A stretch of 64,000 nt of DNA from Aeromicrobium sp. (GTDB lineage Bacteria > Actinomycetota > Coriobacteriia > Anaerosomatales > Anaerosomataceae), in NCBI GenBank assembly GCA_015351705.1, contig JADIIM010000034.1, positions 1-64,000 of the forward strand. Direction: 5' to 3'. The notes beneath the pieces are model-generated. The model was not told the origin of the DNA and made no database searches. It saw only the letters and a list, made by a program, of their open reading frames with translations. Each line of letters begins with the position of its first letter. Position 1 is the stretch's first letter. Position numbers and translations under genes: made by a program. Of the stretch, positions 21,055 to 48,042 are shown one piece after another.

Positions 21055-22017
21055 CTACCGCTCCCACGGCCGCGCACGGCGCTCGACGGCCACCGTGCTG
21101 CCGGACTGGCTGCGCGCGTAGGTGAGCAGCTCCTGGCCGATGTCGGTCAGCGTGATCACGGAGTCCGGGAACTCGTCGGTCAGCAGCATGACCGCCGCCG
21201 AGATGGTCATCGGACCGTGCTTCACCGCGGTGCCCGACCGTGACGTGAGCATGAAGTAGCCGCGCTCCCGGTCCTCGTCTTCGTAGTAGTCCATCACGTC
21301 GAGGTCGAACGCCCGCACGATCTGGCGCGCTACCTCCTCGGCCTTGTCCGGTTCGCAGAGCACCACGAAGTCGTCGGCGCCGAGGTGTCCCGTGAACGCG
21401 TCCTCGCACTCGGCATAGCGCACCGACTCCGAGATGAGCTCGGCCACGTGGTGGAGCAGGAGGTCGCCACGGGAGAAGCCGTAGCGCTTGTTGAATGCGC
21501 GGAAGCCGTCGATGTCGATGAAGATGGCGCCGAACGGCCGCTTGCGCGTCAGGCGGAAGGCGATGTGCTCCTCAGTGAGTGCGTTGGCCGGCAGTCCGGT
21601 GAGGGCGTTTGAGAAGCGCTCGCGGCGCATCCGACGCACGATCATCTGGATGCGTGCATCGAGCACGAGCGGGTCGACGGGCTTGGCCACGAAGTCGTCG
21701 GCGCCCGCCTCGATCGCCATGATCTCAAAGCCCGACTCACCGAGGCTCGTCATGACGAGGATCGGGATGTTGCGGCTACGCGAGTCGGCTTTCATGCGTT
21801 TGCAGACCTCGAAGCCGTCGATGTCGGGCAGGTTGAGGTCGAGCAGGATAGCGTCGGGGGTGATCTCGGCGAGTGCGTGCAGGCCGGTGATCCCGTCCGG
21901 AGCGGACGTCACCAGGTAGCCACGCTCCTGGAGCGACATGGTGATCATCTGTCTCAGCGTGGCCGAGTCCTCCACCACCAAGACGGTGTACTTCTCCCCG
22001 TTGGGCCGCTGACTCAT
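21055..22017 (-). CDS. response regulator with degenerate GGDEF domain
   Basis: This encodes 320 residues. A receiver domain (10-128) has E16/D17, phospho-acceptor D60 in LLDLNLPD and K112. A GGDEF-type domain (about 135-318) follows, but the active-site motif reads GADDF (213-217) instead of GGDEF, and no RxxD inhibitory site precedes it. Phosphorylation by an unlinked kinase may therefore control a domain that binds GTP or partners rather than makes c-di-GMP; residual activity cannot be excluded. The ATG at 22017 follows a GGGGGG RBS. It is convergent with tdk, 16 nt away. Confidence 0.88.
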   Translation of the reverse strand: MSQRPNGEKYTVLVVEDSATLRQMITMSLQERGYLVTSAPDGITGLHALAEITPDAILLDLNLPDIDGFEVCKRMKADSRSRNIPILVMTSLGESGFEIMAIEAGADDFVAKPVDPLVLDARIQMIVRRMRRERFSNALTGLPANALTEEHIAFRLTRKRPFGAIFIDIDGFRAFNKRYGFSRGDLLLHHVAELISESVRYAECEDAFTGHLGADDFVVLCEPDKAEEVARQIVRAFDLDVMDYYEDEDRERGYFMLTSRSGTAVKHGPMTISAAVMLLTDEFPDSVITLTDIGQELLTYARSQSGSTVAVERRARPWER

Positions 22018-22136
22018 GGTGCCCCCCTTGCTTCGCGCCTCACCCAGGGTACCGCGAACCGCCGAGTGATGGTAGCGGTGGAGCGGCGTGCTTCTTGCTT
22101 GCCCAGAGACGCACGACACGCATGAAGGGAGCGCTT

Positions 22137-25578: not shown

Positions 25579-27108
25579 TCACCGCACGCGAATGGCGTTG
25601 CGCCCCGCGTCCTTCGCCTCGTAGAGCGCCTGGTCAGCGCGTGCCAGCATCGGGTCGATGCCGTCGTCGGCGGGCCCGGCCGAGGTCACCCCGATGCTTG
25701 CGGTCACGTGAAGCGGCGTGTCGCCTGCCGCCATGGGCGCCTGTTCGATCGCGAGGCGGATGCGCTCGGCAAGGCCGATCGCGCCATCGTGGTCCGTTGA
25801 CGGGGCGAGTACCAGGAACTCCTCGCCCCCCATCCGCGCCGCGAGGTCGTAGTCCCGCACCGTCGATCGGATACGCTCGGCGATGTCGACGAGCACCGCA
25901 TCACCCACCGCGTGACCGTGCGCGTCGTTGACGTTCTTGAAGTGGTCGAGGTCGAGCATCATCACGGACAGCGGCGCGCCAGTGCGGCGGAAGCGGGCGA
26001 ACTCCTCCGTGAGGCGTTGGATGGCCTTGCGCCGGTTGGCCAGCCCGGTGAGCTCGTCGGTGACCGTCAGGCGCTCAAGGTCGTCGCGGTAGCGATCGAG
26101 CGCCTGCTCCACACGGCGGCGCGAGGTGATGTCACGCAGGGTGATCAGGTTCCCCGTGAGAGCGCCATGGTCCCGGAGCGGGGCCCAGCGGACCTCAAGG
26201 ACGAGGTCGTTGACGTGCTCGAACGTGGCCTCGCGCGCATGCTCAGAGACCGGATGGCCCTCGGCGTGTGCGCACCAGTCGGGGAGCGCATCACAGGCGA
26301 CGCGACCGATCGCGTCTCCGGTGAGTCCGGTCAACTCCTGAGCCGCCGGGTTGATGTCCACGATGCGGGCGTGTGCGTCGAGCACGATGACCCCTTCGGC
26401 CATATGCTCCACGAGCCGGTCGCGGGCCATGGGGACGATGTCGAGCATCCCGTAGCGGAACAGCGCGAAGGCGATGAGCCAGCCGGTCGCGGTGAACACC
26501 ATGGGCGTCAGATCCAGGTCGGGGACCGGGCTCACGCCGAGCAGACTGGCGATGTTGATAAGCCACGGCAGCGACACGCCCAGCAGCGCTACGCCCGCCT
26601 GCCGGCGGTAGAGCGCCTGCGTGCGCACGAACGACTGGGCAAGCAGCACGAGAGTCACGAGGAGAAGCGCGTACGAGTAGACAGCGTTCACCCAGAACCA
26701 CGGACCGCCGCTGAGGATCGAGCCGGTCGTGCGGTGGCCGCCGTAGAACCACCCGTGGAGCGGGTCGGTCCACAAGATGATGAGCGTGAGGGCCGGGACG
26801 ACCGCGATCAGCGCGAGGTTGCGCCAGGTGAGGAGACGTGAGCGGCTCGTGAACTCGAGGGCGAAGGTGAGGATCGCGGCGGGGACGACCACCACGCCGA
26901 AGTAGGTCGCGTCGAGCCAGAAGGTGGCGACTCCGGGGTCGGCGGACAGCCAGCGGAGCGCGTACGTTGCGGCCCAGACCGACATGGCGCCCGTTGCGAC
27001 CGCCAGGCTCGTCGCGCCGGGCGCGGCACGGCGCCGCCAACTCGCCACCGCGACGACCGCGGAGGCGATGGCCGAGATGATGAGGGCAACCGCATAGCCG
27101 GTGTTCAT
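25579..27108 (-). CDS. 7TM-PAS-GGDEF diguanylate cyclase
   Basis: This encodes 509 residues. Residues 1-220 are seven membrane helices resembling the N-terminal 7TM region of histidine kinases. A PAS domain (about 225-335, GVIVLDAHARIVDINPAAQEL) follows, then a GGDEF domain with DELTGLANRR, the metal site MLDLDHFKNVND and an intact AARMGGEEF. RxxD (RDYD) lies five residues before GGEEF, so product inhibition by c-di-GMP is expected. AAGGAG lies nine nt before the ATG at 27108. It should make c-di-GMP in response to a membrane or PAS ligand signal. Confidence 0.92.
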   Translation of the reverse strand: MNTGYAVALIISAIASAVVAVASWRRRAAPGATSLAVATGAMSVWAATYALRWLSADPGVATFWLDATYFGVVVVPAAILTFALEFTSRSRLLTWRNLALIAVVPALTLIILWTDPLHGWFYGGHRTTGSILSGGPWFWVNAVYSYALLLVTLVLLAQSFVRTQALYRRQAGVALLGVSLPWLINIASLLGVSPVPDLDLTPMVFTATGWLIAFALFRYGMLDIVPMARDRLVEHMAEGVIVLDAHARIVDINPAAQELTGLTGDAIGRVACDALPDWCAHAEGHPVSEHAREATFEHVNDLVLEVRWAPLRDHGALTGNLITLRDITSRRRVEQALDRYRDDLERLTVTDELTGLANRRKAIQRLTEEFARFRRTGAPLSVMMLDLDHFKNVNDAHGHAVGDAVLVDIAERIRSTVRDYDLAARMGGEEFLVLAPSTDHDGAIGLAERIRLAIEQAPMAAGDTPLHVTASIGVTSAGPADDGIDPMLARADQALYEAKDAGRNAIRVR

Positions 27109-27256
27109 CGCGCGCGTCTCCTTGCCTGCATATCCGGCTTTCGTGAGTGTATCGGGAACCGCGGGTGCGCGCTTGACTGGATACCTGGTGCGTTGCCCCG
27201 GCATCGGAGCCTCGGTATACTGCGCTACGCCGCCTTCGCGCAGGCGGCACCCCTGC

Positions 27257-27349
27257 GGAGGGGTGGCAGAGTGGTTGAATGCGGCGGTCTCGAAAACCGT
27301 TAGGCGGGTTTCCCCCGTCTCGAGGGTTCGAATCCCTCCCCCTCCGCCA
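27257..27349 (+). tRNA. tRNA-Ser(CGA)
   Basis: Type II tRNA with acceptor GGAGGGG/CCCCTCC, anticodon stem-loop CGGTCTCGAAAACCG giving CGA, long variable arm, T-arm GAGGGTTCGAATCCCTC and encoded CCA at 27347-27349. It reads UCG. Its 3' part is duplicated about 0.94 kb downstream (28255-28278), the pattern expected when a tRNA end serves as an integration site. Confidence 0.97.
27313..27336 (+). repeat. att-like direct repeat, tRNA copy
   Basis: A 24-nt stretch of the tRNA-Ser(CGA) variable arm and T-arm (starting CCCCGTCTCGAGGG) that recurs exactly at 28255-28278. The tRNA-side copy is part of the functional gene. Confidence 0.65.
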
Positions 27350-27365
27350 GTACGACACAGAAGAG

Positions 27366-27397
27366 CCCCGTTCGCCGAGTGAGGCGAGCGGGGCTGT
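27366..27397 (+). terminator. terminator after tRNA-Ser(CGA)
   Basis: A 13-bp stem with one G-T wobble (AGCCCCGTTCGCC with GGCGAGCGGGGCT, six-nt loop) begins 17 nt after the tRNA and is followed by GTCGTCTTGTC. This is a good intrinsic terminator candidate. Confidence 0.75.
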
Positions 27398-27730
27398 CGT
27401 CTTGTCGACCACGACGAATCGTGTGTTCTCCTCATCAGGTCTGGCAGCAGAGGTCGTCGCCTCCGGCGATACCATCGGATCATGACCGAGCGGAGAGGTA
27501 GCTGTCCTGGCGCTCTACATACTGCTGGCACAGGGGCTCTCGTCCGTTTGCCTGACAGCCGAAGCGGCATCACACCTTCCTACACGGAAAGTGCGTGCGA
27601 TGCGCAGCCCCAGCGTGTGGAACTTCGCAAGCGCTTGCGTCAGGACAACGTGGGTCGGTCTGTTCCCAGCCGTCATGACGCTGGCAGCAGCACAACGGCC
27701 CGCTCCCGTTGTGATGGGGCGTACACCTGC
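27398..27730. other. low-coding stretch inside the tRNA-flanked segment
   Basis: About 330 nt with visibly lower GC than the surroundings. Short frames exist on both strands: an ATG-started minus-strand frame of 54 codons around 27500-27660, and a plus-strand hydrophobic frame that lacks a start codon at its N-terminal end. Neither has a convincing RBS or recognisable homology. It may be decayed coding DNA carried with the flanked lipoprotein gene. Confidence 0.5.
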
Positions 27731-36170: not shown

Positions 36171-36611
36171 TCACGCGCAGAAGACGCGGATGTTGTCGCC
36201 GTCGGCCGAGTGCACGTTGATCTCCATCTCGCGGAGACTCTGGATGAGCTCCTCGATGTCCTCCGGCTTCAGGTTGTTGAAGTCGATCGACATGCCGTGC
36301 TCACCCATCGACTCGCTGATCTGGTCCATCGCCTGCGGCGGGATCAATGACGTCAGCTTCAGGCCGGCGCGCAGCAGGCCGAGCGGCACCTTGACGTCCA
36401 CCGTGTCCTTACCCGTGACCTTCACGTACAGGAACTTCGGGGTGCCGGTGGCCGAAGGTCCGGTGGGCCAGTCGTCAGACGGCATCGGCTCGCGAGACGG
36501 CGTCGCCTCTGACGCCGGCGTGCCGAGCGAGTCCAGGAGCAGGTCGGCCTCCTCGGCGGTGATCTTGCCCTCGGCCAGCATGCCGAGGATGCGCTTGCGG
36601 TCTTCGCTCAT
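36171..36611 (-). CDS. SHOCT-like domain protein (DUF2089 operon)
   Basis: This encodes 146 residues. Residues 1-30 form a SHOCT-like helical hairpin (RKRILGMLAEGKITAEEADLL). A Pro/Ser-rich linker (about 31-56) leads to a C-terminal domain with FLYVKVTGKDTVDVKVPLGL and ELIQSLREMEINVHS, resembling the cytoplasmic domains of LiaX/YvlB-like envelope-stress proteins. It is the third gene of a minus-strand operon led by a DUF2089 regulator. Probably cytoplasmic; function inferred only from context. Confidence 0.82.
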   Translation of the reverse strand: MSEDRKRILGMLAEGKITAEEADLLLDSLGTPASEATPSREPMPSDDWPTGPSATGTPKFLYVKVTGKDTVDVKVPLGLLRAGLKLTSLIPPQAMDQISESMGEHGMSIDFNNLKPEDIEELIQSLREMEINVHSADGDNIRVFCA

Positions 36612-36630
36612 GGTGGTGACTTCCTTTCTG

Positions 36631-36921
36631 TCAGTAGATGTCGACTTTGACGAAGCTGTCTTCGGTCACCGCGTCCACATGGGTACCGCGGACCTCGGCA
36701 AGGACGCGCAGTGAGCCGAGAACGAGTCGCGTGTAGTGGTGGTACCGCGCGCCCGACGCAAGGAGCGCAAGATCGACGAGCAGCGTGACGATGAGCGTCA
36801 GCACGAGCAGCGGGAGCAGCAGCGGCCACAGCAGCACGATCGGCAGCCACAGGCGGAACCCTCTCGCGCCGGCCTCGCGAACGCGCACGCGGATCATGAG
36901 CGGGGGCAGGTAGGCGTTCAT
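36631..36921 (-). CDS. small membrane protein (DUF2089 operon)
   Basis: This encodes 96 residues. A basic N-terminus (MIRVRVREAGARGFRLW) is followed by one long or two short membrane helices (LPIVLLWPLLLPLLVLTLIV and TLLVDLALLASGA) and a soluble tail ending SFVKVDIY. The ATG overlaps the stop of the DUF2089 gene (ATGA). It probably works with the DUF2089 and SHOCT-like proteins in an envelope-related response. No precise family recognised. Confidence 0.8.
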   Translation of the reverse strand: MNAYLPPLMIRVRVREAGARGFRLWLPIVLLWPLLLPLLVLTLIVTLLVDLALLASGARYHHYTRLVLGSLRVLAEVRGTHVDAVTEDSFVKVDIY

Positions 36922-37289
36922 CGCCGCATCCTCTTCGCAGCTTCGCTCGCGCTGATCTCGCCACGCTCCAGCAGGTCCAGCACCTCATCGCGCGGCTCCG
37001 GTGTGGGCTCGATCTCGACCTCGACGAGCGCGAGGCGCGCGGCGATGCGGTTGAGCCGGTTCTTGATCGTGGGGTAGCTCACGCCGAACGCCTTCTCCAT
37101 CTGCTTGATCGAGCCGTGGGACCGCACGAACTCTCCGACGAAGACCTGGTCCTCATAGCGGAGCCGCGCCAGCGGCGGGAGGTCGAACTCGCCGTCGATG
37201 CCGATGTCCGTCTCCTTCAGGCGAATACCGGTGACGACGAAGTCGCGGTCTCCGGTGAGGTCGGTCAGGTCGTGCCAATCACGTGCCAT
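36918..37289 (-). CDS. DUF2089-family transcriptional regulator
   Basis: This encodes 123 residues. The central part is a helix-turn-helix (FVRSHGSIKQMEKAFGVSYP, then TIKNRLNRI) as in DUF2089 proteins. The last 28 residues (RDEVLDLLERGEISASEAAKRM) repeat the SHOCT-like hairpin seen at the start of the 36171-36611 product. Its N-terminus lacks the zinc ribbon found in longer members. AAGGGAG precedes the ATG at 37289. It heads the operon and probably binds the duplicated sites over its own promoter. Confidence 0.88.
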   Translation of the reverse strand: MARDWHDLTDLTGDRDFVVTGIRLKETDIGIDGEFDLPPLARLRYEDQVFVGEFVRSHGSIKQMEKAFGVSYPTIKNRLNRIAARLALVEVEIEPTPEPRDEVLDLLERGEISASEAAKRMRR

Positions 37290-37318
37290 GGTCTCACTCC
37301 CTTTCAGCAATCATGAGC

Positions 37319-37448: not shown

Positions 37449-38249
37449 CTACCAGCTGGTGGTATCGCTTTCTCGTGCGACCGGCAGCTCGAACCAGAAC
37501 GTAGAGCCGACGCCCATCGCGCTCTCGGCATGAAGTCGTCCGCCGAGTCGCTCGATGACGGCCCGGCTGATCGTGAGCCCGACTCCGGCGCCGGGACTCT
37601 TGGCGATGTCAGGCTGCGGCAGCTGGCGGAACTCATCGAAGATCCCGGGCAGGTTCCCCTCGGGGATGCCCCGGCCGTTGTCGGAGACGGCGAAGCGGAC
37701 GCGGTCTTCTCCGGCCGAGGCGCCGATAGTCACCGTTCCGCCGACGTCGGTGAACTTGATCGCGTTCCCGATCAGGCGGACGAGCGTCTGGCGCAGTCGC
37801 CGTGAGTCGGTCCGGAGGAGCGGGAGCCCGCCGCTGACCGTGCTCGACACCGTGACCCCCTTCTCGCGAGCGATCGGCGTCACCTGCTCGACGGCAGCGC
37901 CGACGACCTCGGCAGGATGCACGTGGTCATCGGATAGCCGGAGCGTGTCCGAGCGCAACGAGGCGAGATCAAGGATGTCCTGTGCCATCGCGTACAGGTA
38001 CCTTCCCGCGTCGCGGACGGCGGTCAGCTGCCTGCGCTGATCGTCGTTGAGGCCGTCGGCGAGGTCGAGCAGCAGCAGGTCGGAGAACCCGATGATGTGG
38101 TTCAAGGGGGTGTAGAACTCGTGGCTCATGGCCCCGAGGAAGTCGTCGCGAGAGCGTTGGCCCGCGACCAGCTCTTCCTCGAGCTGACGGATGCGAGCGA
38201 GCGACTCCTCGAGCTGGCGCCTGATGTGGGCGGTCTCGTCGTGCGTCAT
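37449..38249 (-). CDS. sensor histidine kinase, third gene of B12-light operon
   Basis: This encodes 266 residues, soluble. A short coiled-coil (RRQLEESLARIRQLEEELVA) precedes the HisKA domain whose H-box reads MSHEFYTPLNHIIGF instead of the usual SHELRTPLN. The ATPase domain has the N-box LIGNAIKFT, G1 DNGRGIPEG and G2 GAGVGLTIS. It has no sensor domain of its own, so input probably comes from the proteins encoded upstream. The ATG overlaps the preceding stop by four bases (ATGA). No adjacent response regulator; the nearest is at 21055-22017. Confidence 0.92.
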   Translation of the reverse strand: MTHDETAHIRRQLEESLARIRQLEEELVAGQRSRDDFLGAMSHEFYTPLNHIIGFSDLLLLDLADGLNDDQRRQLTAVRDAGRYLYAMAQDILDLASLRSDTLRLSDDHVHPAEVVGAAVEQVTPIAREKGVTVSSTVSGGLPLLRTDSRRLRQTLVRLIGNAIKFTDVGGTVTIGASAGEDRVRFAVSDNGRGIPEGNLPGIFDEFRQLPQPDIAKSPGAGVGLTISRAVIERLGGRLHAESAMGVGSTFWFELPVARESDTTSW

Positions 38250-39622
38250 CGGGGGTCGCTGGACCGCCGCGCGGTCTTGTCGGCGTACATGGCCTCGTCC
38301 GCTTCCGCGACGAGCCGGTGCAGGTCATCGAGACCGGCGGCCGTCCCGAGCGCAGTGCCGACCGACGCGACGAGCGGGCGACCGGCCGGGCCGACGGATC
38401 CGGAGAGCTCCGTGCGCAGGCGTTCGACCAAGGCGGCGAGGCCCGTCTGAGCGCCCTCCGTCATCAGGACCACGAACTCGTCACCGCCGATGCGCGCGAT
38501 GATGTCCGAGCGTCTGGCGCAACGGCGAAGCGTGTCCGCGAAGATTCGAAGCACCTCGTCGCCTGCTGCGTGTCCAAGCTCATCGTTGACTGCCTTGAAC
38601 CCGTCAAGGTCGGTGAACAGGACGCCAGATGGCTCATCGGCCCGCGCCGCGCGCTCGAGTGCGACCGTCGCAAGGAACTCGAATCCCCGTTTGTTGTTAA
38701 GCCCGGTGAGCTGGTCCTCGAGTGCGAGCTCGCGTAGGCGTTCTGTCGCCGCGCGTTGCTCGGTCACATCTTCCGCGGCTCCGATGATCTGCGACACGCG
38801 CCCGTCCGGGAGTCGTGCGAACACGGTCTCCCGCGTATGAAGGATGCGCCAGGTGCCGTCGGCGGCCCGCGCACGGATGTCCCATTCCACCAGGTCGTCG
38901 TCGGCCGCGTCCGCGATCTCAAGGAGCGTCCGCTCGCGCAGACGTCGTGACGGCTCATCCAGGTAGGACTCGAACAGGTCGCGAAACGCGTCGGCTCCGG
39001 TGGCCTGCGTGTAGCCGAGTATGTTCTGTACGCCTCGGCTCGCGAAGACCACGCTGTGCGAGGGGAGGTCGAAGATGTAGATGATCGTGGGCGCGATGTC
39101 GATGATGCTGTTGACCAGGCGACGGCTGCGCTCCAGCTCAGCGTTCTTGCGTGCGAGCTCGCGCTGAAGGCCCACGAGTTCGTTGTTGAGCCTGCTCAAG
39201 TGCGTCAACTCGTCGGGCGTGTCGGAGGTCGCCCCGCCGGCCTGCTGCGCCTTGTGCATCCCGCGAACGTGCGTGACGAGCTCCGAGTTGATGCGGACGA
39301 CCTCGGCGAGCATCTCGAGCGCCTCGGTGTCCGACGGCGAGCCGATCACGAGGACGCCCGAGCTGGTGACGACAGCGTTGAGATTGACTCCCAGCGGCAC
39401 GTGGCAGGCATCGATCGTGATCGCCCACCCGAATGCGCTTCCTTCTGTCCGGAGCGCCTCGAAGAGGAGCCGCGTCTTGTCCGCATCGCTCGCGACCGCG
39501 AGGTCGGAAAGGTGGGTGCCCGCCGAGAGGGTCGGCGTTGCGCACAGGTTGTCCACCAGCACATCGTCGATGCGCCCAGTCTCGTCGCAGACGACGACGA
39601 ACCCGGAGTTGCGTGCAGGCAT
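38246..39622 (-). CDS. PAS-GGDEF diguanylate cyclase, second gene of B12-light operon
   Basis: This encodes 458 residues, soluble. Residues 1-120 form an unrecognised PAS-sized domain (SGFVVVCDETGRIDDVLVDN...). A coiled coil (about 137-168) leads to a PAS domain (170-290, IYIFDLPSHSVVFASRGVQN). The GGDEF domain (295-455) has the metal site FTDLDGF, intact GGDEF at 379-383 and an inhibitory RxxD at 370-373. It should synthesise c-di-GMP under control of its N-terminal domains. It starts 12 nt after the B12-binding gene and overlaps the kinase gene. Confidence 0.93.
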   Translation of the reverse strand: MPARNSGFVVVCDETGRIDDVLVDNLCATPTLSAGTHLSDLAVASDADKTRLLFEALRTEGSAFGWAITIDACHVPLGVNLNAVVTSSGVLVIGSPSDTEALEMLAEVVRINSELVTHVRGMHKAQQAGGATSDTPDELTHLSRLNNELVGLQRELARKNAELERSRRLVNSIIDIAPTIIYIFDLPSHSVVFASRGVQNILGYTQATGADAFRDLFESYLDEPSRRLRERTLLEIADAADDDLVEWDIRARAADGTWRILHTRETVFARLPDGRVSQIIGAAEDVTEQRAATERLRELALEDQLTGLNNKRGFEFLATVALERAARADEPSGVLFTDLDGFKAVNDELGHAAGDEVLRIFADTLRRCARRSDIIARIGGDEFVVLMTEGAQTGLAALVERLRTELSGSVGPAGRPLVASVGTALGTAAGLDDLHRLVAEADEAMYADKTARRSSDPR

Positions 39623-39634
39623 GTGCGCTCCTGT

Positions 39635-40693
39635 CTACGTGCCGACCAGCGTGGCCGCGGTCTCGACCGCCCTCCGGGCATCGGGCGCGTAGGCATCGGC
39701 CCCCACTCGCTCGAAAAGGCCGGGCGCCAGGTTGAACGGGTAGCCGCCGACGATGATCGGCACCCCGGCGATCCGCTCGTCGGCCTTGAGGGCTCCGACG
39801 ACAGCGGCGACCTCGGGCACGTGGTAGGGCATCGTGGCCGAGAGTGCGATGACGTCGGCCTTGCGCTGTGCTGCGGCATCGACGATCGTCGCGGTGGGGG
39901 TGTTCGCGCCGATGAAGTGCGTGTCCCATCCCGCCATCTCGAAGTGGTCGGTCACCATCCGCAGCCCCAACTCGTGGAGCTCGTCGCCGACACACGCTGC
40001 CACCAGGACGCCCTCGGTATGCTCGCCCGTGAACATGTAGCGGTACAACTGCGCCATCACCATCTGGGTGACGGCGGTCGCGTAGTGCTCCTGGGCGACG
40101 GTGATCTTGTTGAGATGCCAGAGCCTGCCGAGCTCGAGTTGCGCTCGCTCAAGCACGTGGCGGTACACATCACCGATGGCAACACCCCCCTCGACCGCGT
40201 CGATGATCGCCTGCACCGCGGTGGTGCGGTCTCCGCCGAGCACCGCACCCAGATAGCGGACGGCCAGGCCGGCCAGCGGCTGAGCCGGGTCCATGTTCGA
40301 CGGTGGCTCGCCCGAGAGCCCGTCGAGCCTGCCGAGAGACGTGTCGATGACGGATGCGGCGTCGTGCGCTACTGCCGGGGTCACCACGTCGCCGACCGCG
40401 TCCCTGACGTCGGCGAGGCTGCCGGTGAGCCACTCCACGGGAAGGCCGAGGTTCTCGAACAGCACGCGTACCCAGCGCACGTAGTCGTCGAAGATGATCT
40501 GCTCATCGGCCCACAGCGCCGTGGCCACGAAGCTCACGTGGTAGCCCGTGTCCTTGATCGTGTTCTGCATCTGTGACGCAGAGAAGGAGTCGAACAGCCC
40601 GGGCCATCGATGGTTCTGCCGGTCCAGGGCGGCGCGCACGATCGGGTCTACGTTCGCCCGCAGTTCCTCGGCAGCGTGCCTCCGTGCATCCAT
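39635..40693 (-). CDS. CarH-like cobalamin-binding photosensor protein without DNA-binding domain
   Basis: This encodes 352 residues. Residues 1-120 are an unassigned helical domain (DTGYHVSFVATALWADEQI). Residues 135-220 are a B12-binding four-helix cap, and 226-350 a Rossmann-like B12 domain with VAACVGDELHELGLRMV (H240, likely lower cobalt ligand) and the glycine-rich GGYPFN. The cap carries W192-H193-x8-E202-H203, the Wx9EH pattern of CarH/LitR photoreceptors in which Trp caps the adenosyl group and the adjacent His binds cobalt after light. Metabolic B12 proteins normally lack it. It leads an operon with a cyclase and a kinase. Confidence 0.9.
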   Translation of the reverse strand: MDARRHAAEELRANVDPIVRAALDRQNHRWPGLFDSFSASQMQNTIKDTGYHVSFVATALWADEQIIFDDYVRWVRVLFENLGLPVEWLTGSLADVRDAVGDVVTPAVAHDAASVIDTSLGRLDGLSGEPPSNMDPAQPLAGLAVRYLGAVLGGDRTTAVQAIIDAVEGGVAIGDVYRHVLERAQLELGRLWHLNKITVAQEHYATAVTQMVMAQLYRYMFTGEHTEGVLVAACVGDELHELGLRMVTDHFEMAGWDTHFIGANTPTATIVDAAAQRKADVIALSATMPYHVPEVAAVVGALKADERIAGVPIIVGGYPFNLAPGLFERVGADAYAPDARRAVETAATLVGT

Positions 40694-46101: not shown

Positions 46102-48042
46102 GTGTCATCCACTCAGATGACTGAGCAGCCCGACGGATCACCCATCTTCACCCGGCGACGTGAGCGCATCGGCGCGGCACGAGCAGCCGTGCGCATGACG
46201 CGTCCGGTGGGCGTACTCGCCCTACTCGTCGCGGCCGTGCCGATCTGGCTCGACGCCCCTGCCTGGCCGGTCTCGGCGGCGGTCAGCGCCGTGCTCGTAG
46301 GTCTCGCTCTCGTACTCGTACGAGGTCTCGGTGCCATGGAGGCTCGGCTCGGAGACACCGCTCGCACCATCGCGCTCGCCGAGCGCCTCTACGGGTCCAC
46401 GAACGACGGCGTTGTGATCACCTCGGCCGACGGGACGATCGTCGACGTCAACGACGCGTACTGTAGGCTTCACGGCCACCCGCGCGAGGCGGTGCTCGGC
46501 CAGAACCCGAGGATGATGAAGTCCGGCCGGCATCCGCGCGAGTTCTACGAGGAGATGTGGCGCTCGATCACGAGCGATGGTCACTGGGAAGGTGAGATAT
46601 GGGACCGTCGTGCCGACGATCAGCTCATCGTGAAGTGGCTGTCCATCACCGCGGTCCGTGACGAGCGCGGCGCTGCCGCCGAGTACGTCGGCGTGTTCAC
46701 CGACCTCACGCCCCTTCGCGAGAGCGAGGAGCGGGCCGAGTGGGTCGCCACCCACGATCCGCTGACCGGTCTGCCCGATCGCAGACTGCTCGCAAGCCGC
46801 TACGAGGCGCTCGTTGCGCACTCGCATCGGCACGAGGGCCTGGTCGCGGTCCTGCTCGTGGACCTCGACCGCTTCGGCGAGGTGAACGACGCGTTCGGTC
46901 ACGTCTGCGGCGACGAGGTGCTCGCCGAGACGGCACGCAGGTGTGAGGCGGCCCTGCGCGAGGAGGACATACTGGGACGAGTGGGAGGTGACACGTTCCT
47001 CGTCGTGCTGTCGGATGTCTCCGGTTCGCGTGACGTCGACGTGGTCGCCGACCGGCTGCTCTCGGAGATCTCCGAGCCGATCGCCGTGAGAGATCGCACC
47101 GCGCACCTGACCGCGAGCATCGGGGTAGCGCTGAGCAACGGGGACACGCGTCTGGAGGACCTCGCACGCAACGCCGAGACGGCAACTGCCCGGGCGAAGA
47201 GCGCGGGCGGCTCCCGTTACGAGTACTTCAGCCCTGACATGCAGGCCGAGTCCTCGCGCCGTCATGCGGTCGAGCGGGAGCTGCGGTTCGCGCTCTCGCA
47301 CGGGGGGCTGCGTCTTGAGTACCAGCCGCAGGTGGACCTGCGGACCGGTGACATCGGCGGTCTGGAGGCGCTCGTTCGGCTGACCACGCCGGACGGCGAC
47401 ACGATCATGCCCGGGGAGGTCGTCCCGGTCGCCGAGCGCACCGGGCTCGCCATCGACCTTGGCGCGTGGGTCCTCGGCCAGGCGTGTGACGATCTGGTCG
47501 TCCTGCGCGAGCGCGGGTACGCCGGGAGGGTCTCGGTGAACTTCTCGGCGCACGAGTTCTCGCGCGAGTCGCTGGTCGATGAGGTCCTCGCGGCGGTGGG
47601 TTCACGGGGCCTGTCTCCGCAGGACCTGGAGATCGAGATCACCGAGTCCGCGATGATCTCTCAGGCCGATGTGGCCGAGGCCCACGTGCGCCGGCTGCGC
47701 AGGGAAGGCTTCGGCATCGCGCTCGACGACTTCGGCACGGGCTACGCCTCCGTGTCCTACGTGCAGCGGTTCCGGCCCACCACCATCAAAGTCGACCGCA
47801 CCTTCATCCAGGGCCTGCCCGCCGAGTCCAGCGCGAGCGCGATCGTGCTCGCGACCCTGGTCCTCGCAAAGGGCACGGGCGCTGCGGTCGTGGCCGAAGG
47901 CCCTGAGACAGAAGAGCAGGTCCGCTTCCTCCGGAAGAACCGGTACACCTACGCGCAGGGGTACTACTTCAGCCGGCCTGCGCCGCTCGACGCCGTGTTC
48001 GACCTGCTGGACAACGCGCCGTTCGAGCTGCCGGGCGACTGA
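46102..48042 (+). CDS. PAS-GGDEF-EAL c-di-GMP phosphodiesterase
   Basis: This encodes 646 residues. Two membrane helices (about 36-75), a PAS domain (95-205), a GGDEF domain whose active site reads GGDTF (295-299), and an EAL domain (395-640). The EAL set is complete: E422 in LEALVR, N480, E515 (ITES), D542/D543 in LDDFGTGY, K563, E599 and E602. The cyclase half has lost its catalytic Glu (E to T) but keeps RxxD just upstream, so it is expected to hydrolyse c-di-GMP, with the GGDEF part acting as a GTP or c-di-GMP sensor. The GTG start follows AAAGG. Confidence 0.93.
   Translation: MSSTQMTEQPDGSPIFTRRRERIGAARAAVRMTRPVGVLALLVAAVPIWLDAPAWPVSAAVSAVLVGLALVLVRGLGAMEARLGDTARTIALAERLYGSTNDGVVITSADGTIVDVNDAYCRLHGHPREAVLGQNPRMMKSGRHPREFYEEMWRSITSDGHWEGEIWDRRADDQLIVKWLSITAVRDERGAAAEYVGVFTDLTPLRESEERAEWVATHDPLTGLPDRRLLASRYEALVAHSHRHEGLVAVLLVDLDRFGEVNDAFGHVCGDEVLAETARRCEAALREEDILGRVGGDTFLVVLSDVSGSRDVDVVADRLLSEISEPIAVRDRTAHLTASIGVALSNGDTRLEDLARNAETATARAKSAGGSRYEYFSPDMQAESSRRHAVERELRFALSHGGLRLEYQPQVDLRTGDIGGLEALVRLTTPDGDTIMPGEVVPVAERTGLAIDLGAWVLGQACDDLVVLRERGYAGRVSVNFSAHEFSRESLVDEVLAAVGSRGLSPQDLEIEITESAMISQADVAEAHVRRLRREGFGIALDDFGTGYASVSYVQRFRPTTIKVDRTFIQGLPAESSASAIVLATLVLAKGTGAAVVAEGPETEEQVRFLRKNRYTYAQGYYFSRPAPLDAVFDLLDNAPFELPGD

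Follow-up and report, generated by a model that had tools for sequence, protein, structure and literature searches.

A probable photocobilin-type sensor with globin-first domain order, encoded with a diguanylate cyclase and a histidine kinase

What signal could a B12-binding protein pass on when its gene directly precedes genes for a diguanylate cyclase and a histidine kinase? Three minus-strand genes raise this question in the window, the 64-kb stretch of DNA that we analyzed, which comes from a genome of 2.07 Mb (60 contigs, 96.75% complete). The sensor and cyclase genes are separated by 12 nt containing a GGAG sequence, while the cyclase and kinase genes share a 4-nt ATGA overlap (Table 1). 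These three genes, their spacings and the overlapping stop had been described in a sequence-only reading of this DNA, and our re-read coordinates bear out all of them. The genes form a real, well-formed operon. A consensus scan for promoters and terminators found nothing.

The window contains three more ORFs matching GGDEF (21055-22119, 25579-27573 and 46102-48042), which makes the region rich in c-di-GMP signalling genes. Just 3′ of the kinase gene, the minus strand at 36171-37310 encodes a DUF2089 helix-turn-helix protein (36918-37310), a small ORF and a SHOCT-like DUF2089-C protein (36171-36611).

Table 1. Genes and domains of the operon, with positions in the window
Feature	Coordinates	Strand	Basis
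Probable photocobilin-type sensor gene, 352 aa	39635..40693	-	ORF, domain matches, PDB relatives, model
Phycobilisome-like (photoglobin) domain, residues 3-118	40340..40687	-	PF00502, PDB matches, conserved D48/W74
B12-binding_2 four-helix bundle, residues 146-216, with W192 and E202-H203	40046..40258	-	PF02607, invariant residues
B12-binding Rossmann domain, residues 229-343, H240 at lower-ligand position	39665..40009	-	PF02310, best solved relative 8j2w
PAS-PAS-GGDEF diguanylate cyclase gene (P0002), 458 aa	38246..39622	-	Domain matches; starts 12 nt past sensor gene
N-terminal PAS-fold candidate partner domain, residues 1-165, with putative signalling helix LNNELVGLQREL	39128..39622	-	Also found in kinases and other outputs adjacent to photocobilin genes
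Second PAS domain (PAS_3), residues 192-282	38777..39049	-	Pfam
GGDEF domain, residues 301-454, intact GGDEF and RxxD	38261..38722	-	Sequence, Pfam
Soluble histidine kinase gene (P0003), 266 aa, no recognised sensor domain	37449..38249	-	Pfam; ATGA overlap with cyclase gene

A globin-first relative of photocobilins

The first gene had been read as encoding a CarH-like B12 protein lacking a MerR-type DNA-binding domain. The B12 assignment and the missing DNA-binding domain are both correct, as no helix-turn-helix family was found. What had been overlooked is that the N-terminal ~120 residues form a phycobiliprotein-like globin, which matches the Pfam Phycobilisome family with 33 bits (cut-off 22.2). 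When this domain alone was searched against PDB sequences, it matched the allophycocyanin-type protein ApcB3 (8imi, 4.9e-6), allophycocyanins and photocobilins. An AlphaFold2 model of the sensor (pLDDT 93.4, pTM 0.88) has an all-helical N-terminus.

The CarH comparison holds for the B12 signature but not for the closest family, since photocobilins come ahead in both sequence and model searches of the PDB. The best sequence relatives of the whole protein are the photocobilins 8j2w, 8j2x and 8j2y (1e-28 to 2e-29), with CarH at ~1e-6, and the protein scores below the CarH NCBIfam cut-off. Foldseek gave 8j2w as the best match of the model, at 34% identity and 1.8 Å over the B12 part only, in an alignment that runs in sequence order; against the CarH B12 domain, identity was ~23% at 3-4 Å. 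The order of the domains, globin and then B12, is the reverse of that in the solved photocobilins. The bilin-type globin at the N-terminus makes photocobilin, rather than CarH, the nearest known family, and the protein is probably a photocobilin-type light sensor (B12 plus bilin-type globin) whose two domains have changed places. The 2024 photocobilin paper (PMC10979010) mentions groups that carry the AdoCbl domain at one end of the chain or the other; its authors note the globin-first group without characterizing it in the passages covered.

The equivalents of two bilin contacts are conserved. In an ungapped phmmer alignment, D48 (present in 27/28 homologues) corresponds to Asp270 of the photocobilin SasPcob, which coordinates the bilin pyrroles, and W74 to Trp296, which touches both bilin and corrin (PMC10979010, same passages); Trp61 gave the offset of 6 between chain and published numbering, and Trp296 confirmed it. 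D48 further lines up with the Asp in the CxRD motif of phycobiliproteins. There is no attachment Cys, as T45 occupies that position. Across the family, eight of the 28 aligned homologues have a Cys there, which is absent from published photocobilins, and the globins of three swapped-order proteins (L048, L050 and L081) carry the full CxRD motif, attachment Cys included. At two other loci (L049 and L051), the photocobilin gene is broken across two frames, through assembly error or decay.

In the B12 part, the sensor carries W192-H193 and E202-H203 (W-x9-EH) and E238 with H240 (ExH), a set included in the signature published for light-responsive B12 domains (PMC11796333). Every residue named in the sequence-only reading is present, and W192, E202, H203 and H240, as well as G243, G262, P266 and W74, are identical in 28/28 homologues. 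H193 does not stand as a family feature: position 193 is Gln in 16 homologues and His in seven. CarH-like bis-His light chemistry is thus not to be assumed; the light end state of SasPcob has water or hydroxide on cobalt (PMC10979010, same passages). GxxW-x9-EH occurred in just one of seven other B12 proteins read in the host genome (an eighth, weak match was left out). Judged by this rarity and by the invariance of the four signature residues, the match is not due to chance.

In the one protein with this pattern (L078, 6133-7086 on G000:C39), no globin was recognised. It is possibly AerR-like, and similar B12 stretches are present in many genomes of the order.

The cyclase, the kinase and their counterparts in other genomes

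The cyclase gene was correctly read as encoding a PAS-GGDEF protein with an intact GGDEF motif and an inhibitory RxxD, here RRSD, five residues upstream (RRSDIIARIGGDEF); the match to PF00990 is 124.7 bits. No Pfam family matched residues 1-165 at the threshold applied. A model of this region has a PAS-like core and two long helices, with pLDDT mostly >90, and it matches PAS domains in the PDB. The domain, with a conserved LNNELVxLQRELxxKN helix, is common to many proteins encoded beside photocobilin genes. Two distinct kinase groups and the cyclases carry it, and it also lies near a phosphatase, from which we infer that it receives the sensor's signal; with its helix, it is probably a coupling module.

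The third product matches HisKA (PF00512) and HATPase (PF02518), with H43 in SHEFYTPLN as the phospho-accepting His and NAIKFT, DNGRGIP and GAGVGL as the N- and G-box motifs. It is a soluble histidine kinase that lacks its own sensor, as the sequence-only reading had it.

We read by hand the directly downstream gene in 30 readable homologous loci. Loci outside the order were found by sensor peptide patterns alone and were therefore not selected for their neighbours. In 21 of the 30, which span several phyla and include archaea, this gene encodes a signalling enzyme, in most cases a histidine kinase and in the others a GGDEF protein; in nine (G055, G017, G021, G012, L045, L056 and others) it does not. 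PAS-PAS-GGDEF proteins come next in G016, G030, G039, G042 and the window, and a PAS-GGDEF protein in a Clostridiales MAG (L049). PAS-kinases follow in G008 and several other phyla, and kinases in Bathyarchaeota (L053) and Methanolobus (L044). In Halanaerobacter (L052), a PAS domain with a SpoIIE phosphatase lies upstream. As far as gene order tells, photocobilins are repeatedly paired with signalling enzymes across a wide range of bacteria and archaea. The co-conservation that had been expected of all three genes holds for the sensor and a signalling gene; among the loci read, a separate kinase as third gene occurs only in the window and in G030, from another family of the order.

Direct coupling is backed independently by two fused proteins. 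In L081, globin, B12 domain, LNNEL linker and GGDEF domain lie in a single chain, and in L058 a B12 domain is fused to a kinase.

Signal, ligands and output

We consider it likely that this swapped-order photocobilin passes a light signal by contact to the PAS domain of the cyclase, with the kinase as a second output. In the dark, AdoCbl would sit between W192, E202/H203 and H240 in a head-to-tail sensor dimer. Green light would break the Co-C bond and alter the dimer, as would red light with a bilin in the globin. By direct contact, the sensor would hand this change to the neighbouring cyclase at its N-terminal PAS domain, and the signal would run along the LNNELVxLQREL helix to the GGDEF domain and change c-di-GMP output. 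The co-translated kinase would serve as a second output of the sensor or the cyclase complex, acting on some response regulator.

Precedent for such coupling to c-di-GMP, which is plausible here, comes from the covered passages of PMC10979010. Illumination of AdoCbl-bound AbDPcob, a fused photocobilin-diguanylate cyclase (DGC), raises DGC activity >10-fold, and standalone photocobilins change DGC activity in trans in vitro: activation of a cyclase by one of them is described, whereas SasPcob without biliverdin (BV) acted in the opposite sense. That light would activate the cyclase here is a guess by analogy with AbDPcob. The earlier proposal that the sensor is placed to act on the cyclase by contact gains from this precedent, from the conserved neighbour and from the L081 fusion. 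Its claim of novelty does not survive, since photocobilin-DGC coupling is already published (PMC10979010). A literature search for the exact operon returned nothing relevant.

The host genome encodes BtuR, which could supply AdoCbl, and ferrochelatase; a PduO-type adenosyltransferase is absent. No match to the heme oxygenase family PF01126 was found in the host or in 60 relatives of its order (61 genomes), so the globin may be empty. Among 20 genomes containing homologous loci, one has PF01126. The absence of a match to one Pfam model is not an absence of bilins, and bilin uptake is possible. G154, an apparently aerobic genome with COX1 and a SasPcob-order protein, also lacks PF01126, which makes a missing heme oxygenase less distinctive of anaerobes. 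As for an anaerobic bilin source, HutW/ChuW (TIGR04107) gave matches in 34/36 genomes, none over the cut-off. Since all 14 controls also match (one over the cut-off), these represent radical-SAM background.

No COX1 match was found in the host genome, which suggests anaerobic life. The host is one of 24/36 searched genomes without COX1, and among the carriers are methanogens, Bathyarchaeota and Clostridia, besides other probable anaerobes, which may or may not be exposed to light. These habits fit a sensor that reports AdoCbl supply or redox state instead of light, in which the CarH-type pocket merely holds AdoCbl, and AdoCbl binding, or its loss under oxidants, would switch the partner; AdoCbl binding alone lowers AbDPcob DGC activity relative to the apoprotein (PMC10979010, same passages). 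We regard this as rather unlikely, as the invariant W-x9-EH and ExH residues belong to the light-responsive signature (PMC11796333) and the conserved bilin contacts fit a light antenna best. A metabolic role, such as a corrinoid methyltransferase subunit with signalling genes beside it by chance, is very improbable: the similarity to MtbC and MtgC that might recommend it is weak and far under the NCBIfam cut-offs, on which grounds we rejected that identity, and it would leave the CarH-type signature, the globin, the recurring signalling partners and the fused relatives unaccounted for.

The kinase could instead be the main target, with a kinase output ancestral and the cyclase added in this order, alongside or downstream of the kinase. 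Outside the order, the neighbour is most often a kinase. P0003 clusters (98/86) with two others, the standalone kinase of G030 and the PAS-kinase encoded next to the photocobilin of G008, and in L047 the photocobilin gene is followed by genes for a PAS-kinase and then a REC-PAS-GGDEF protein. However, the closest relative (G016, 71% identity) keeps the sensor and cyclase with no kinase nearby, and the shared PAS domain is on the cyclase here, while the kinase lacks it. We therefore think a kinase-first arrangement unlikely and favor contact of the light sensor with the cyclase.

The sensor type is known and the main idea has published precedent; our analysis contributes the corrected family assignment, the conserved PAS partner, the fused relative and the question of the bilin source. 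The operon would provide a naturally occurring photocobilin-cyclase pair made of two proteins, with a candidate signal-receiving domain that can be named. More speculatively, and in our estimate doubtful, swapped-order photocobilins may form a large plug-in sensor family, with kinase, cyclase and phosphatase outputs joined through one PAS domain, using a bilin that does not come from a PF01126 enzyme. The bilin part of this idea follows from nearly all searched carriers lacking PF01126 yet keeping the bilin-binding Asp, some even with the CxRD attachment motif. Should the globin hold a bilin in hosts that lack heme oxygenase, one would have to ask directly where anaerobes obtain bilins; should it hold none, the conserved Asp requires another explanation.

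Comparison with known sensors

The closest known systems are SasPcob (8j2w/8j2x) and AbDPcob (8j2y), which likewise combine a CarH-type B12 domain bearing the Trp/Glu-His/His set with a phycobilisome-like globin. Like SasPcob, the sensor has the Asp and Trp bilin contacts and, like photocobilins, it lacks the attachment Cys, can stand alone and has a c-di-GMP output, here predicted. It differs from them in that the globin comes before the B12 domain, the cyclase is a protein of its own, encoded next to the sensor, with two PAS domains and followed by a kinase, and the host genome has no PF01126 heme oxygenase. A photoglobin-B12 survey by Schneider et al. (2022) reportedly linked the globin-B12 unit to prokaryotic signalling domains and gene neighbourhoods, and may include this operon.

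CarH (TtCarH, 5c8d) and CtMerR (8jbs) share the B12 domain with its Trp, Glu-His and lower His, but they have the MerR DNA-binding domain that is missing here, and similarity to them is lower than to photocobilins. To our knowledge, AerR has no globin domain. The sensor nonetheless resembles AerR and PpaA, antirepressors of CrtJ/PpsR, in being a B12 sensor without a DNA-binding domain that is proposed to contact a partner protein. AerR is a B12 photoreceptor that acts on CrtJ by contact (PMC6199135, in the part covered). Its target is a transcription factor, whereas the sensor described here adjoins a cyclase and a kinase.
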